In this document: one piece after another, positions 5,703 through 14,094 of the stretch
How positions within the stretch are numbered: the stretch's first letter is position 1
Layout of the letters: the number at the start of each line of letters is the position of its first letter
NCBI GenBank assembly: GCA_016929295.1
Contig: JAFGJB010000281.1
Location: 1-34,084, forward strand
Direction of reading: 5' to 3'
From: Candidatus Zhuqueibacterota bacterium
Lineage (GTDB): Bacteria; Zhuqueibacterota; Zhuqueibacteria; Residuimicrobiales; Krinioviventaceae
DNA length: 34,084 nucleotides
Notes under the pieces: generated by a model
What the model was told of the DNA's origin: nothing
Databases searched by the model: none
The model's input: only the letters and a program-made list of their open reading frames with translations
Translations under genes and position numbers: made by a program

Positions 5703-7896
5703 AGCGAAACAATCATTTGATCGGCTATTGGGTGATCTCAATGAGGCGCAAAGGCAAGCTGTCACGCAACTCGACGGCCCCGTACTCATTCTCGCGGGCG
5801 CCGGCAGCGGCAAGACGCGTGTCTTGACCTATCGAATTGCCTACCTGATTGCCGGCGGCAAAGCGACGGCCAGAGATATCATTGCATTGACATTCACCAA
5901 TAAAGCGGCCGGTGAAATGCGAGAACGCGTCCATAAACTTGTTCCGGAATCGGTGGCGACCATGTGGGTAGGAACGTTCCATTCATTGTTCGCCAGAATT
6001 TTACGACGCGAAGCCGATCGAATCGGCTTTTCGCCCAATTTTACCATCTATGATGCGGATGACCAGGAAGCGCTGATCAAGACCATCCTGAATGAAAACG
6101 GCGTCTCCCTGCAAGTGCATTCGCCCAAATTGATCGCCTACACCATCAGTCGCGCTAAAAATGCCATGATCAGCCCGGAGGAGTTACAGCGCGAAGCTGA
6201 TAATCCGCTCAAACAGGTCGCCGCCACCGTCTATCATGAATACATGCGTCACTTGCGCCGGCTCAATGCCATGGATTTTGACGATCTGTTGGTCAAACCG
6301 ATTGAGCTCTTTGCCTTATATCCTCTGGTCAAGGAATACTACCAGGACCGATTTCGCTACATCATGGTGGATGAATATCAGGACACGAATCGCGCCCAAT
6401 ATCTGGTTCTGCGTGAATTGGCGGACAAATTCAAAAACATTTGCGTTGTCGGTGATGATGACCAATCGATCTATCGCTGGCGTGGCGCCGAGGTGCGCAA
6501 TATTCTGGAATTTGAGAGGGATTATCCGGCTTGCGCAAAATATCGTCTGGAGCAAAATTATCGCTCGACGCCGGCCATTCTCGGCCTGGCGCATTCGGTG
6601 GTGACAAAGAACAGAGAACGCCACGAAAAGAAATTATGGACTGAAAAGAAAAATGGCGAGCTCGTCTCTCTGGTGTCTGTTTACGATCAGCGCGAGGAAG
6701 CTCGCCTGATTGTGGAAAAGATCAGCGCCGAGTTTCGCAAGGGCGAACGAAAATTCGGCGATTTCGCCGTCCTCTATCGCATCAACGCTCAATCGCGTTC
6801 GCTTGAAGACGGCTTCCGGATCGAAGGTATTCCCTATATCATCGTCGGCGGCATTCGATTTTATGAACGCAAGGAAATTAAGGATGTGTTAGCGTATCTG
6901 CGGCTTTTGGTCAATCCCGCCGATACGATCAGCCTGAAACGCATCATCAACTATCCGGCCAGAGGCATTGGCGAAGCGACGATCGCCAAAATCGATGCCT
7001 ACGCTCGCGAGCAAAAGCTCTCTTTTCTGGCGACTCTCGACCATGTTGAAAAAATGAGCGGACTGCAAAAGCGGACGGCGGAGCGATTGATTCTTTTTGC
7101 CCGGCTAATCAGGAAATATCAGGCGCTGCAAAACCAGGTCTCGGCTGCGGAATTGGCCTCGACACTGGTGGAGGAGTTGGGCATTCTGCGGCAATTCAAG
7201 GAGGAAAATACCATCGATTCCGCGACGCGCGCCGAGAATGTCCGCGAGCTGCTGCAAGCGATTCATGAATTCTCCGCAGCCGGCGGCGAGGAGAACACGC
7301 TGGCCGCCTATCTGCAGCAGGTGTCGCTCATCACCGATCTGGATACGTGGGATGACCGGGCGAACGCCGTCACCCTCATGACCTTGCATGCGGCAAAAGG
7401 GCTGGAATTTCCGGTCGTTTTCATCGCGGGACTGGAGGAGGGTTTGTTCCCGCTATCGCGCAACATTGATGATCCGCGTGACCTGGAGGAGGAACGTCGT
7501 TTGTTTTATGTCGGCTCGACTCGCGCCAAGGATAAACTCTATCTTTTCTGGGCGAAGAATCGCCAGCGATTTGGCGAATCTCGCAGTTATAAATCACGTT
7601 TTCTCAAAGAAGTTGATATGAACTTTGTCACCACCGAGGAAAGCCCGACGATTGCGCGAGAAAGAAGAGGGCAGTCGCAAATCAGCTACAGCTACGACGC
7701 CATGCCGCATTACGAAGAAGAATCGCAGGAAACAGTCGAGTTCAATGTCGGCATGCGCGTTCGCCATCAAACGTTTGGCAAAGGCACCATCCTCAGCGTC
7801 GAGCCGTCAAGCGGCGGCGCCAAACTGGTGGTGAATTTTGACAGGGTCGGAAAAAAACGTCTTGTACTACCTTTTGCACAACTGGAGATATTGTGA
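5692..7896 (+). CDS. pcrA: UvrD/PcrA-type superfamily 1 DNA helicase
   Basis: A 734-residue ATP-dependent 3'-5' DNA helicase for excision repair and removal of recombination or transcription complexes. SF1A motifs appear in order: Walker A AGAGSGKT (35-42), ALTFTNKAAGEM, VDEYQDTN (Walker B), VVGDDDQSIYRWRGA, LEQNYRST, VTLMTLHAAKGLE and EERRLFYVGSTRA. The C-terminal 45 residues (VGMRVRHQTFGKGTI...) form the Tudor-like fold that contacts RNA polymerase in PcrA and UvrD. The start is ATG 5692, inside the last codons of mltG and in frame with the motifs. The open frame upstream to 5299 is a shadow of mltG. PcrA and UvrD cannot be separated by eye. Confidence 0.94.
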   Translation: MSSKAKQSFDRLLGDLNEAQRQAVTQLDGPVLILAGAGSGKTRVLTYRIAYLIAGGKATARDIIALTFTNKAAGEMRERVHKLVPESVATMWVGTFHSLFARILRREADRIGFSPNFTIYDADDQEALIKTILNENGVSLQVHSPKLIAYTISRAKNAMISPEELQREADNPLKQVAATVYHEYMRHLRRLNAMDFDDLLVKPIELFALYPLVKEYYQDRFRYIMVDEYQDTNRAQYLVLRELADKFKNICVVGDDDQSIYRWRGAEVRNILEFERDYPACAKYRLEQNYRSTPAILGLAHSVVTKNRERHEKKLWTEKKNGELVSLVSVYDQREEARLIVEKISAEFRKGERKFGDFAVLYRINAQSRSLEDGFRIEGIPYIIVGGIRFYERKEIKDVLAYLRLLVNPADTISLKRIINYPARGIGEATIAKIDAYAREQKLSFLATLDHVEKMSGLQKRTAERLILFARLIRKYQALQNQVSAAELASTLVEELGILRQFKEENTIDSATRAENVRELLQAIHEFSAAGGEENTLAAYLQQVSLITDLDTWDDRANAVTLMTLHAAKGLEFPVVFIAGLEEGLFPLSRNIDDPRDLEEERRLFYVGSTRAKDKLYLFWAKNRQRFGESRSYKSRFLKEVDMNFVTTEESPTIARERRGQSQISYSYDAMPHYEEESQETVEFNVGMRVRHQTFGKGTILSVEPSSGGAKLVVNFDRVGKKRLVLPFAQLEIL

Positions 7897-7897
7897 G

Positions 7898-10800
7898 ATG
7901 AATCAAAGAATAAAACATCTCTTGTCCATCGGACTTTTCGTGACATCTTTTGCCATGGCTCAGCAGACGCTGCAGGAAGATCAAGATTTTCGCTTTGCCA
8001 TCCAGCTGGAAAATAGAGGACTGTATGATATCGCCGCCCTGCAGTTCGAACGTTTTGCCGACACATACCCGACGAGCCCACAAGCGCCAACCGCCTTGCT
8101 GCAGGCCGGCGAAAACTATGAAAAGGCCGATAGCCTGGCACGAGCATCACGAGTCTATCTGGCAGTGCTGTTACAATATCCGCAATCCGCGATATTGGAC
8201 AAAGCGCAGTATAACCAGGGCAGACTACTGGCGAAGAATGGCGAACATCTGCAAGCGGCCATTGCCTACGATCGAATCAAGGTCTTGTCCCCCAGGAGCG
8301 CGCTCATCCCCGAGGCGCAAATCGCCGCCGCGCACTCTTTTTTGCTGGCCGGCGATTTGCAAAGGTCATATGACGCAGCGTTCTATATTCTTGAAAATCA
8401 CAGCACTCATCCGGCACGCTTGCGCGCGCATAAAACCATTGCCGACGTGCACGAGCACAGAGGTGACTATACCCTCGCACTCCAGTCTCTTGAACGTATC
8501 CTCAGCGACCGCGTTGAAGATGATCTGGCGGCAACGGCGTATATACAAAAGGCAGAGATCCTCAAAAAACTTGGACGATTTACTCAAGCTGACAGCGTAT
8601 TGAACAAACTGGTCGCGGGCAAATATGCCAGCCCGATTGTCTCAGGCGCAGCATTGACATTGGCGAGATCAATGCAGGAGCAGGGCCAATTTCGCGACGC
8701 AGCGACTGTGCTCAACAACGCATTGGCCAAGGTGACTGTCGATGATAAAAGCGATTTGTGGTTGACCCTCGGTGATAATTACTATCTTGAAGAAGATTTT
8801 AGCCAGGCGAAAAGCACCTATCTCAAAGTGGCGAATGCAGCGCAGACCAGCAGCGGCCTTTATTTATACCGCTTGGGAATGGTGGATAAAGCCCTGGGGG
8901 ATGTGCCATCCGCCTCGAGTCACTTTGAGCAGGTGCTGGATGATACGACTCTGCATGAAAAAATTCGCATTCATGCAGCCATCGAATATGCCGATCTCAT
9001 CGCGCGCTCGGGCCGCGCCGTCGAGGGGATTCGATACCTGCAAAACTGCGTCGCCACGGCAACGGAACAAGCTGACCGAAATGAATTGCTCCTCGCCATA
9101 GCCGGACTGCAGGAAACCTGTCTGCAGGATTTTGTCGGCGCACGGCAAAATTATCATGCCATCCTGGCGGGATCTCCAAAAAGCTCGATTGCGGATGATG
9201 CGCAATATTTCGCCGCTCGATCCTATGAATATGAAGGCAATCTGAAAAATGCCCTGGGAGAGTATTCCCGCTATCTGCAGTACTATCCGGGCGGCGATTT
9301 TCATTCAATCAGTCAGCAGAAAGTGGACATTTTTCGTTTGACCACTCCAGCGGAGTCGAAAACTCTGCAGCAAGCGGTGAACGAGATCGTGGCTCCCGTT
9401 TCTCGCGCCGGTGCGCTTCACACTCTCGCACACTATCAGATGCACTCTTTTTATGATTATGCCAGGGCACTGGAGCTGCTGGAAAGCGCCGAAAGAGAGA
9501 ATGCCGACGGGCTCAATCTGGAAAAAGTGTACTATGATAAAGGCTTTTGTCATTTTATCCTGCAGGGAAAGGCGTCCCTGGCTAAGCGCATGCAAGAGGC
9601 CGGTGAACATGCCGGTCAGTTGATGCGCCTTGCTGAGAGGATGGCGACAAATTACCCGCAGTCGAAATTAACAGATCAAGTTGAATATTGGGCCGCCCTG
9701 GCGAATTTGCCGACGCAGGAATCTGTGGCAGCGCGTTCTGAATTTCTCACCTCTTCCATCAACAAGATGAACAATGACAGCCTCAGGCAGCATCTGCAAT
9801 TGCGGTTAGTGGATGAAATCGTCGCGTCCTCGCGCGGCCAGGACGCTTCTCAGCTGGAGCAAGCCGGCAGGTCGCTCGATGCGATCATCTCGTCTAGCGC
9901 GTGCGAAAGAATTCAGGCAGAAGCGCTTTATAAACGAGCGCTTTTATTTTATCACACCGCAAAGTCAGATTCCTCGATCGCCCTGCTGAATCGGATGCTG
10001 CTGCTGCGCGATTCGACTCGACGCGTCGATGCTCTTTATCTGCTCGCCACGCTTTACGAGGAGAGAGGAAATGACAGCGATGCGCAACGACTCTATTACG
10101 AGGTCGCCGAACATTATTTCTACTCACCATCGGCGGCGAGAGCGGAGGTCAAGTTGATCTCTCTGATGCTCAGGCGGGGACAGGTCAAAGAGGCTGAGGC
10201 GCGGGTGCTGGCGAAAGAAAAAACCGGCGTTCCTCGCGAGCTGAAAATTTTCTACCCGGTCAAGGCGGATGACGAGGCATTGTGGCTGTGGACAGAGCTG
10301 ACGCGTCGTACGAAATCGCCACAGCAGGCCGTTGCCGCGCTGCAGCAGTATCTCGATCTCGGCAAAGATTCGCAGCACTATGCTGAGGCACTGTTTGCCA
10401 TTGGCGAGTTGGCTGATGAGATGAACAAGCAGGAGATGGCTCTCGGATATTTTCAGGAATGCGCCGCGATCGTTCCGGATGAGCCTCTTGGCCAAAAGGC
10501 GCGATTCAAAACGGCGCAGCTTTACTTTGATCGCGGACTCTATGAAGAGGCGGGTGAACGCTACGCCGACATACGCGACGACCTCTCAGGTGATGTGCGC
10601 AAGGAGGCATTTGTACAGCAGATTATCTGTCACTATCGACTGGGCAAGCTCGGGCGAGCAGAAGATTTGCTCAAACAATTTAAAAAAGAGTATGATGACC
10701 GCAACGCCGAAGCGAAATTCCTCTATGAAGAAGGAATGTTCTATATCAACAGCAAAGATTTCGCGAAAGCTGAAAAGTCGCTCAAAACATTGGCGAGTAG

Positions 10801-11554
10801 ATATGATGATGTTCCCCAGGGTGCTCGCGGTGATCTGGGCCTGGCGCGGTTGTACGTCGTGCAGACAAAGACCGAAGAGGCGCTCAAACGACTGACCGAG
10901 ATTCCGACAAAATACAAAGATCCGGAAATTGTCGCGACGGCTTTTTTAAATCTTGCTGATTTCTATTATGAGAATCGCGCGCTTGCGAATACAGTTGAGG
11001 CCGGCAAGCAGGTGCTGCAATTGACGAATGACCGTCTGATGCGCGGGCAAGCCCTCGATCTGCTCATCAATGCTCTCGATGATTTGGGAATGCGCGATCA
11101 AGCCATTGCCTATCAGCGCGAATACATTGAAACATATCCACATGCTTCTGATCTGCTGGATCGGCGAATCCGTATCGGTACATTTCTCTACTATTTGAAA
11201 GAGTACGATCGCGCCATCGTCCAGTTGAAGGAACTCAAACCACTGGCGCCGGCAAACGATGAAGCGCGCGTGCAATTCTGGATTGCCGAATCCTATGCTG
11301 CAGCCGGATTGACAGAACAAGCAATCATCGAATATCTCAAAGTGCGCTACCAATGCCAGCAACATCCGAAACTGCCGTTCGGCGTGACGGCACTGTACAA
11401 GGCGGGTGAAGGCTATCAAAAACTCGGCAATCTGCCAAAAGCAAAAGAGATGTATGAAACTGTTGTCCGCGAGCGTGGTGCAACGGATGATATCGGCCGT
11501 CATGCGAGCCGAAAATTGCAGGAGGTCGAAGCAGAGATGGGAAAACAGTTGTAA
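7898..11554 (+). CDS. Large secreted tetratricopeptide-repeat protein
   Basis: A 1218-residue protein with a Sec signal peptide (basic MNQRIKH, then hydrophobic LLSIGLFVTSFAMA, probable cleavage after AMA at about residue 20). It is followed almost entirely by TPR and TPR-like helical pairs, for example LENRGLYDIAALQFERFA and AREAF-like A/Y/L-rich units ending in YP. No enzymatic domain is visible. It is probably a periplasmic or outer-membrane-associated scaffold for protein interaction. ATG 7898 is used because TGGAG lies at 7883-7887 and it directly follows the helicase stop, leaving one base between them. nadC starts 2 bp after its stop, so the three genes are almost certainly co-transcribed. 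Its function is unknown. Parts resemble BamD/YbgF-type TPR arrays, but that does not assign a role. Confidence 0.85.
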   Translation: MNQRIKHLLSIGLFVTSFAMAQQTLQEDQDFRFAIQLENRGLYDIAALQFERFADTYPTSPQAPTALLQAGENYEKADSLARASRVYLAVLLQYPQSAILDKAQYNQGRLLAKNGEHLQAAIAYDRIKVLSPRSALIPEAQIAAAHSFLLAGDLQRSYDAAFYILENHSTHPARLRAHKTIADVHEHRGDYTLALQSLERILSDRVEDDLAATAYIQKAEILKKLGRFTQADSVLNKLVAGKYASPIVSGAALTLARSMQEQGQFRDAATVLNNALAKVTVDDKSDLWLTLGDNYYLEEDFSQAKSTYLKVANAAQTSSGLYLYRLGMVDKALGDVPSASSHFEQVLDDTTLHEKIRIHAAIEYADLIARSGRAVEGIRYLQNCVATATEQADRNELLLAIAGLQETCLQDFVGARQNYHAILAGSPKSSIADDAQYFAARSYEYEGNLKNALGEYSRYLQYYPGGDFHSISQQKVDIFRLTTPAESKTLQQAVNEIVAPVSRAGALHTLAHYQMHSFYDYARALELLESAERENADGLNLEKVYYDKGFCHFILQGKASLAKRMQEAGEHAGQLMRLAERMATNYPQSKLTDQVEYWAALANLPTQESVAARSEFLTSSINKMNNDSLRQHLQLRLVDEIVASSRGQDASQLEQAGRSLDAIISSSACERIQAEALYKRALLFYHTAKSDSSIALLNRMLLLRDSTRRVDALYLLATLYEERGNDSDAQRLYYEVAEHYFYSPSAARAEVKLISLMLRRGQVKEAEARVLAKEKTGVPRELKIFYPVKADDEALWLWTELTRRTKSPQQAVAALQQYLDLGKDSQHYAEALFAIGELADEMNKQEMALGYFQECAAIVPDEPLGQKARFKTAQLYFDRGLYEEAGERYADIRDDLSGDVRKEAFVQQIICHYRLGKLGRAEDLLKQFKKEYDDRNAEAKFLYEEGMFYINSKDFAKAEKSLKTLASRYDDVPQGARGDLGLARLYVVQTKTEEALKRLTEIPTKYKDPEIVATAFLNLADFYYENRALANTVEAGKQVLQLTNDRLMRGQALDLLINALDDLGMRDQAIAYQREYIETYPHASDLLDRRIRIGTFLYYLKEYDRAIVQLKELKPLAPANDEARVQFWIAESYAAAGLTEQAIIEYLKVRYQCQQHPKLPFGVTALYKAGEGYQKLGNLPKAKEMYETVVRERGATDDIGRHASRKLQEVEAEMGKQL

Positions 11555-12564: not shown

Positions 12565-14094
12565 ATGAGTCAGATAGAAAATAGCAAATCTCCCAACCCC
12601 GATGATATACGAAACGACGTCTCTAATTTTCTACGCAACAAATACGGCGATCGTGTGATCATTCCGCCGGAAGCCGAACGAGTCGGCAATCCGCCGGCCG
12701 ACAAAAATAATGACGAAAAATCGCTGCCGAACATCCATTTTGATCTCAAGCCGACGGAACTGGAATCCTATCTCAATGAATATATCGTCGGCCAGCAGGA
12801 AGCGGTGGAGGTGTTAGCGACCAAAATCGCGACGCACTTTAATCGGATGAAATACGAAACGCGAAATAGTGATATGGAGGCGCTCGTCGGCAACATCAAG
12901 AGCAATGTCCTGATGATTGGCCCGACCGGTGTCGGCAAGACCTATCTGGTGAAATTGATTGCGAAGAAAATTGGCGTACCGTTTGTAAAGGGTGATGCGA
13001 CCAAGTTTAGCGAAACCGGCTACGTCGGCGGCGATGTGGATGATCTTGTGCGCAACCTGGTGCATGAAGCTAACGGCGATATTCGCCTCGCCGAATATGG
13101 CATTATTTATCTTGATGAAATTGACAAGATAGCGTCCTCGGGCAATGGTTTTGGACCGGACGTGTCGCGCAGCGGCGTCCAGCGCAACCTGCTCAAGCTC
13201 ATGGAAGAAGGTGAAGTTGATCTCAAGGTGCCGCATGATCTGGCTTCGCAGATGGAGGCCGCTATGCAGGCGCAACGCACTGGCAAGGTCGAGCGCAAAA
13301 AGATCAATACAAAGAATATCCTGTTCGTCACCAGTGGCGCCTTTTCCGGATTGACGGACATCATCCGAAAACGGCTGAATCAACAGCCAATGGGATTCAC
13401 GAACAAGGATGCGGATGTCCTGAAAATTCCGGATGAGAATATTTTCAAAATGGTTCGGTCCGAGGACTTGATCAAATTCGGCTTTGAAACAGAGTTTGTC
13501 GGCCGTCTTCCCGTGGTCGTCAGCCTGGATGGCCTGGATGTCGAAGGTCTCTATCAAATTCTCAAGAATCCAAACAGCACGGTCATTCTCGGCAAAAAGC
13601 GGGATTTCCGAGCCTACGGCATCGAGATCGACTTTGACGATGATGCCTTGCATCGGATCGCCGAGCTCGCCTTTGAAGAGCACACCGGCGCGCGCGGTCT
13701 GACAAGTGTGGTTGACCGACTGCTGCTCAAGTACGAAAAGCTGTTGCCGGATACGAACCTGGATCACATCGTCATCACTCGCGAGATTGTGGAAAATTCG
13801 ACCGCGGAACTGGAAAAAATATTGACGAATTACTATATCAAAAGCTTTCAAACGAGATTTCTCGTCCGCAACAATATTGTCATCACTTTTACGAAAGAAG
13901 CCATCCAGATGCTGCAGGATAAAGCGCGACAGCACGGACAGAATGTGGAGCAAGTGTGCAACGAATTGCTCGGCAACTATGAGTATGGCCTCAAATTGCT
14001 CAATTGGGACAAGTTCACGGTGGATGCGGACATTATCAAGAATCCCAAGGAACGGCTGGAAGAGTTGATCAAGAAATCATATGAAAAAAAGTAA
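12565..14094 (+). CDS. ClpX-like AAA+ ATPase, atypical architecture
   Basis: A 509-residue HslU/ClpX-class AAA+ protein. It has Walker A GPTGVGKT (119-126), pore loop GYVG (152-155), Walker B YLDEID (182-187), arginine-finger box EFVGRLP (310-316) and sensor-2 GARGL (375-379). Three things differ from standard ClpX. The N-terminal ~60 residues have no Cys4 zinc-binding domain. The ClpP-docking IGF loop reads MGF (276-278). A polar insertion (about 222-246) sits where the RKH loop lies in ClpX. After the AAA small domain there is a ~90-residue extension (437-502) that itself resembles a second small domain lacking sensor 2. No clpP is adjacent; uvrC follows after 19 bp. It is probably an unfoldase or remodeller, but protease partnership is unproven. 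Confidence 0.85.
   Translation: MSQIENSKSPNPDDIRNDVSNFLRNKYGDRVIIPPEAERVGNPPADKNNDEKSLPNIHFDLKPTELESYLNEYIVGQQEAVEVLATKIATHFNRMKYETRNSDMEALVGNIKSNVLMIGPTGVGKTYLVKLIAKKIGVPFVKGDATKFSETGYVGGDVDDLVRNLVHEANGDIRLAEYGIIYLDEIDKIASSGNGFGPDVSRSGVQRNLLKLMEEGEVDLKVPHDLASQMEAAMQAQRTGKVERKKINTKNILFVTSGAFSGLTDIIRKRLNQQPMGFTNKDADVLKIPDENIFKMVRSEDLIKFGFETEFVGRLPVVVSLDGLDVEGLYQILKNPNSTVILGKKRDFRAYGIEIDFDDDALHRIAELAFEEHTGARGLTSVVDRLLLKYEKLLPDTNLDHIVITREIVENSTAELEKILTNYYIKSFQTRFLVRNNIVITFTKEAIQMLQDKARQHGQNVEQVCNELLGNYEYGLKLLNWDKFTVDADIIKNPKERLEELIKKSYEKK

Follow-up and report, generated by a model that had tools for sequence, protein, structure and literature searches.

Among single-ring unfoldases ClpX is the textbook example, and its zinc domain and RKH loop are credited with the choice of clients. 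In the E. coli enzyme the RKH loops are located at and above the channel mouth, contact the substrate and control recognition as well as the rate of ATP hydrolysis (PMC7112951). The closest described protein to the one reported here, compared by its description only, is ClpX3 of Myxococcus xanthus (MXAN_2743), a third ClpX paralogue which carries neither an N-terminal zinc domain nor an RKH motif, is coded away from clpP, is 43.5% identical to E. coli ClpX and is required for the cells to grow normally when the temperature is raised; a second C-terminal small domain is unmentioned in the excerpted description (PMC11423568).

The gene analysed in this study lies in a 34,084-nucleotide stretch of DNA (the window) from a bacterium of the KSB1 phylum, and its product belongs to a family that can be set against three groups of known proteins. 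With canonical ClpX (TIGR00382/NF003745; E. coli 6wrf and 8e91) it shares the AAA+ core (residues 62–415, 36–40% identity), the pore-1 GYVG motif, the xGF loop, the arginine finger and sensor 2, and ClpX also provides the best Foldseek matches. In contrast to ClpX, the family has no Cys4 zinc domain, carries a longer conserved segment in place of RKH and a second small domain, scores below the model cut-offs and forms a separate clade. HslU (TIGR00390) likewise has no zinc domain, and its KFxE-GYVG and GPDVSRxGVQR stretches recur in the family. However, the alignment reveals neither the I-domain nor the C-terminal tail of HslU, and the IGF loop, the extra small domain and the separate clade distinguish the family further. 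The ClpX homologues of phages and plasmid records share the ClpX core, mostly at 32–44% identity, but none in these collections covers 80% of the window protein, and the two longest-matching viral homologues end soon after one small domain; no second small domain was found on viral contigs. A mobile-element origin was considered and dismissed, as the full protein was found in no phage, plasmid or viral contig. The same applies to a defence system, for which PADLOC gave only weak generic AAA matches.

The ATPase core and its altered recognition elements

The window protein is a complete ClpX-type ATPase subunit without zinc domain (Table 1). In the PDB it matches ClpX chains most closely (E 4e-69 over the core residues given above), and ClpX chains also rank first in Foldseek with a probability of 1.00 and TM values of 0.71–0.89 depending on the target, which corresponds to a ClpX/HslU-type AAA+ core fold. 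Walker A and B, sensor 1, arginine finger, sensor 2 and pore-1 loop are complete in all 50 family sequences, including R377 of the first small domain as the sensor-2 residue. Against the NCBIfam clpX models the protein attains 317 and 294 bits, under both equivalog cut-offs (359 and 371 bits), and among the NCBIfam models scanned none is specific for these proteins, the clpX models matching only below cut-off. The window's assembly (4.34 Mb) encodes HslU and, as revealed by a search for canonical clpX and clpP recommended in the preliminary description, a canonical zinc-type ClpX adjoining ClpP on another contig. The window gene thus encodes a ClpX that is additional to, and distinct from, the canonical one.

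Table 1. Features of the ClpX-like gene and its product (nucleotide positions refer to the window).
Feature	Residues	Position	Strand	Remarks
ClpX-like AAA+ ATPase gene		12565..14094	+	ORF; 509 aa plus stop
N-terminal segment in place of Cys4 zinc domain	1-59	12565..12741	+	
Large AAA+ domain	60-319	12742..13521	+	
Walker A, GPTGVGKT	119-126	12919..12942	+	kept in 50/50 family members
Pore-1 loop, GYVG	152-155	13018..13029	+	50/50 family members
Walker B, IIYLDE	180-185	13102..13119	+	50/50 family members
Family-specific segment, LKVPHDLASQMEAAMQAQRTGKVERKK	220-246	13222..13302	+	stands where ClpX has the RKH loop
xGF docking loop, MGF in the window protein	276-278	13390..13398	+	
Arginine finger in EFVGRLP	R314	13504..13506	+	50/50 family members
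First small domain, sensor-2 R377 in TGARGL	320-414	13522..13806	+	Pfam ClpB_D2-small 347-388
Second, degenerate small domain and C-terminal helix	415-509	13807..14091	+	sensor-2 Arg absent

The missing Cys4 zinc finger, which the preliminary description had pointed out, proved to be a property of the whole family: the window protein and its 49 relatives (50/50) have not a single cysteine among their first 60 residues, and the zf-C4_ClpX profile finds no match in the window protein. In the AlphaFold model residues 12–30 form one predicted helix, which is followed by a low-confidence linker.

The polar insertion described earlier at about residues 222–246 is real as well: a stretch from about residue 220 to 246, longer by 11 residues, stands in place of the RKH loop. 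In the alignment, canonical ClpX proteins carry VPPxGGRKH after the pore-2 region, whereas the family reads KTPHDLA(A/S)Q(M/V)EAAMEAQRTGKVTRKK at this site. None of the 50 family members has RKH; it occurs in all 10 canonical ClpX proteins from the phylum. The replacement segment shows 93% mean column identity over the 50 sequences and retains its core motif in 49/50; in the same set the Walker A and pore-1 segments are 91–94% and the small domains 57–72% conserved. AlphaFold predicts a helix at residues 226–239 with low confidence (pLDDT about 55–60). The strong conservation of the segment implies a specific job, which we infer to be client choice.

The C-terminal extension

The 95-residue C-terminal extension is a degenerate duplicate of the AAA+ small domain, in agreement with the internal duplication suggested in the preliminary description. 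Profile–profile comparison (hhalign) of residues 430–496 with residues 345–414 yielded an E-value of 8e-10, and the same comparison based on 50 sequences scored 56.3 (E 3e-10), whereas the best of 100 column-shuffled profiles reached 20.8. The relationship between the two copies is also detectable within the spirochaete sequences alone (E 1e-7), and profiles from other parts of the protein produced no signal. Moreover, in some of the ORFs that it detects, the extension HMM matches the first small domain as well (E 5e-9 to 4e-7), and Pfam ClpB_D2-small recognizes the extension in 7 of 19 members with a best E-value of 0.001; the window extension as a single sequence gave nothing useful in Pfam. 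In the AlphaFold model of the whole protein, helices and strands run through the small-domain order two times in tandem (pLDDT about 90), and the extension folded alone reaches a pLDDT of 92.

Foldseek searches with the isolated extension rank ClpX first and HslU next at probabilities of 0.99–1.00, the similarity being modest (TM about 0.6, best E 0.02). The sequence-only profile match to the PDB weakened from E 0.005 to 0.037 after addition of the divergent spirochaete rows, despite which HslU and ClpX are its top matches. In profile comparison the second small domain matches the small domains of HslU with an E-value of 2.5e-7 and those of ClpX with 1.7e-4. The second copy has no TGARGL motif, so that the loss of the sensor-2 arginine noticed earlier is borne out, and a role in ATP hydrolysis is consequently not expected.

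Family range and the ClpP question

Members of the family, at least 50 in number and of the same anatomy throughout, were found in the KSB1 phylum and in Spirochaetota. A search with an HMM of the C-terminal extension, as the preliminary description had proposed, detected the family in 27 of the 82 genomes of the window's phylum and in 45 of the 296 genomes sampled from Spirochaetota. These two phyla were the only ones sampled, and the range is thus a lower bound. All 29 spirochaete proteins read out comprise about 490–510 aa in the same layout. In core trees all family members group together with strong support and separately from canonical ClpX and HslU; the family does not fall inside ordinary ClpX, an outcome considered in the preliminary description, and the changes are common to its relatives. 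The root among the family, canonical ClpX and HslU is unreliable owing to the very long branch of the ClpB D2 outgroup. The spirochaete members form a supported subclade of their own within the family, which suggests an old family or at most one ancient transfer. A search of open-licence papers revealed no description of these proteins, although an earlier description elsewhere is possible, and we provisionally term this conserved ClpX-related family, for which no earlier description was found, ‘ClpX-S2’. Two orthologues are broken, those at L004 (1501–3027) by two in-frame stops and at L024 (6001–7529) by a frameshift, both attributable to sequencing error or decay. A spirochaete orthologue in G082 is split over L025 and L149 (residues 6–206 and 215–507), which fits an assembly break.

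Most ClpX–ClpP contacts come from the IGF loops. In E. coli ClpX, the I268L exchange is damaging and V274A weakens binding to ClpP. The MGF sequence at residues 276–278, emphasized in the preliminary description as a deviation from IGF, is indeed present but represents ordinary variation rather than a special trait: the 50 family members contain 41 IGF, 6 VGF, 2 MGF and 1 LGF loops, xGF being universal, and canonical ClpX proteins of the window's phylum have V, Y, M, I, F or L at the first position. The xGF columns, with 94% mean identity, belong to the most conserved parts of the family, and the spacing from the docking loop to EDL has the canonical length (21 residues versus 20 in the same genome's own ClpX). 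ClpP is present in 82/82 genomes of the window's phylum. Among the spirochaete carriers it was detected in 34/37 and zinc-type ClpX in 33/37; three exceptions are without both genes, and a fourth has only a cut ClpP fragment, a pattern that assembly gaps would produce. The three carriers that match neither ClpP nor zinc-type ClpX are G203, G239 and G306; these absences are likely assembly gaps and, if real, would favour ClpP independence. An extra ClpP occurs in some carriers, but covariation with it was rejected as a clue since a single ClpP is found in the window's genome and in many others.

Based on this analysis, we consider the family to be a paralogous branch of ClpX that feeds the ClpP of canonical ClpX and acts on different clients, a reading to which we assign a probability of roughly 0.6. 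The subunits would assemble into a hexameric ring, pull substrates through the pore and deliver them to the ClpP that they share with canonical ClpX. A different client set would follow from the loss of the two parts by which ClpX chooses clients, the zinc domain and the RKH loop, and from the new conserved loop predicted at the channel mouth. The second small domain would have an additional role outside catalysis, either in bracing the ring or in binding a partner or a client. Judged from the sequences, substrate handling is very probably changed and the family probably still depends on ClpP. The earlier inference of a ClpP-independent remodeller or an unfoldase with a changed partner thus stands with respect to altered substrate handling, whereas its claim of ClpP independence is unsupported in view of the conserved xGF columns, the canonical loop length and the occurrence of ClpP in every genome of the phylum. 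Three observations count against the proposed link to ClpP. The residue of the window protein that corresponds to I268 is M; the contact equivalent to V274 varies within the family (K, Q, D, E and others), such that the affinity to ClpP may possibly be altered; and no clpP neighbour was found at any family locus examined.

The lost V274-equivalent contact and the missing genomic link to clpP would suit a ClpP-independent remodeller, whose ring disassembles or refolds specific complexes. In such a protein the second small domain might face the protease side and prevent docking to ClpP or take its place; the added C-terminal domain is also compatible with this reading. A remodeller that never meets ClpP would, however, be expected to lose the xGF loop, and the conservation of this loop (IGF in most members, canonical length) makes such a function rather doubtful. 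The local HslU-like signatures, KFSE before GYVG and GPDVSRxGVQR in the pore-2 region, together with the stronger profile match of the second small domain to HslU than to ClpX, would be explained by an unfoldase serving another peptidase, HslV or an unknown one, with docking through the C-terminal domain. We regard this as quite improbable considering the lack of the HslU I-domain and C-terminal tail, the presence of the IGF loop and the separate HslU-type gene in the window's genome and most relatives. The coexistence of canonical ClpX in the same genome might finally permit drift in a redundant copy, the protein then being an ordinary ClpX with lineage-specific noise. Such noise is scarcely credible in the light of the common anatomy of 50 sequences from two phyla, the highly conserved replacement segment, the fully retained catalytic residues, the strongly supported separation from canonical ClpX in the tree and the scores below both equivalog cut-offs.

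A tentative and more daring scenario is in our estimate about as doubtful as the remodeller: the family would represent a third major ClpX/HslU branch, distinct from ClpX as well as HslU, with twelve rather than six small domains per ring, the second set of which offers a new surface for docking clients or a non-ClpP partner, and the near-invariant loop at the channel mouth would read a degron of its own. The presence of canonical ClpX and ClpP in the window's genome and in nearly all carriers checked marks the family as a separate paralogue in which substrate recognition has been rebuilt and a domain has been added. In this natural and apparently old family the zinc domain and RKH loop are replaced and the motor and docking loop are kept, which allows one to test which parts encode client choice; the tandem second small domain offers a way to probe the role of small domains beyond ATPase coupling.

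Gene neighbourhood

The window gene lies 19 bp upstream of uvrC, and the order nadC–gene–uvrC is kept over most of the window's order and in some of its class. Other families of the class and the Spirochaetota have not retained this setting, and operon context was rejected as a clue; among the loci compared no neighbour is common to both phyla. Without a shared neighbourhood, no functional partner can be read from the context. In one bacterial family of the class (L111 and L112, in G040 and G054) the gene stands outside the nadC–uvrC setting, with TPR, rimP and nusA genes coming after it at L112. At six spirochaete loci (L181, L185, L189, L191, L192 and L195) a conserved gene of about 140 aa with FEDKICFGCGPDNESGLRL is located directly upstream on the same strand.

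The window also encodes, at 7838–11554, a 1238-aa TPR protein with several YbgF/BamD-like repeat stretches, which most of the order retains immediately upstream of nadC, at only 32–40% identity outside the genus. In G000 one full ClpB (C315) is accompanied by three ORFs below the ClpB cut-off (C246, C166 and C250); these sub-cut-off ORFs have lengths of 861, 738 and 1192 aa, the 1192-aa one matching more strongly to the second ATPase half.
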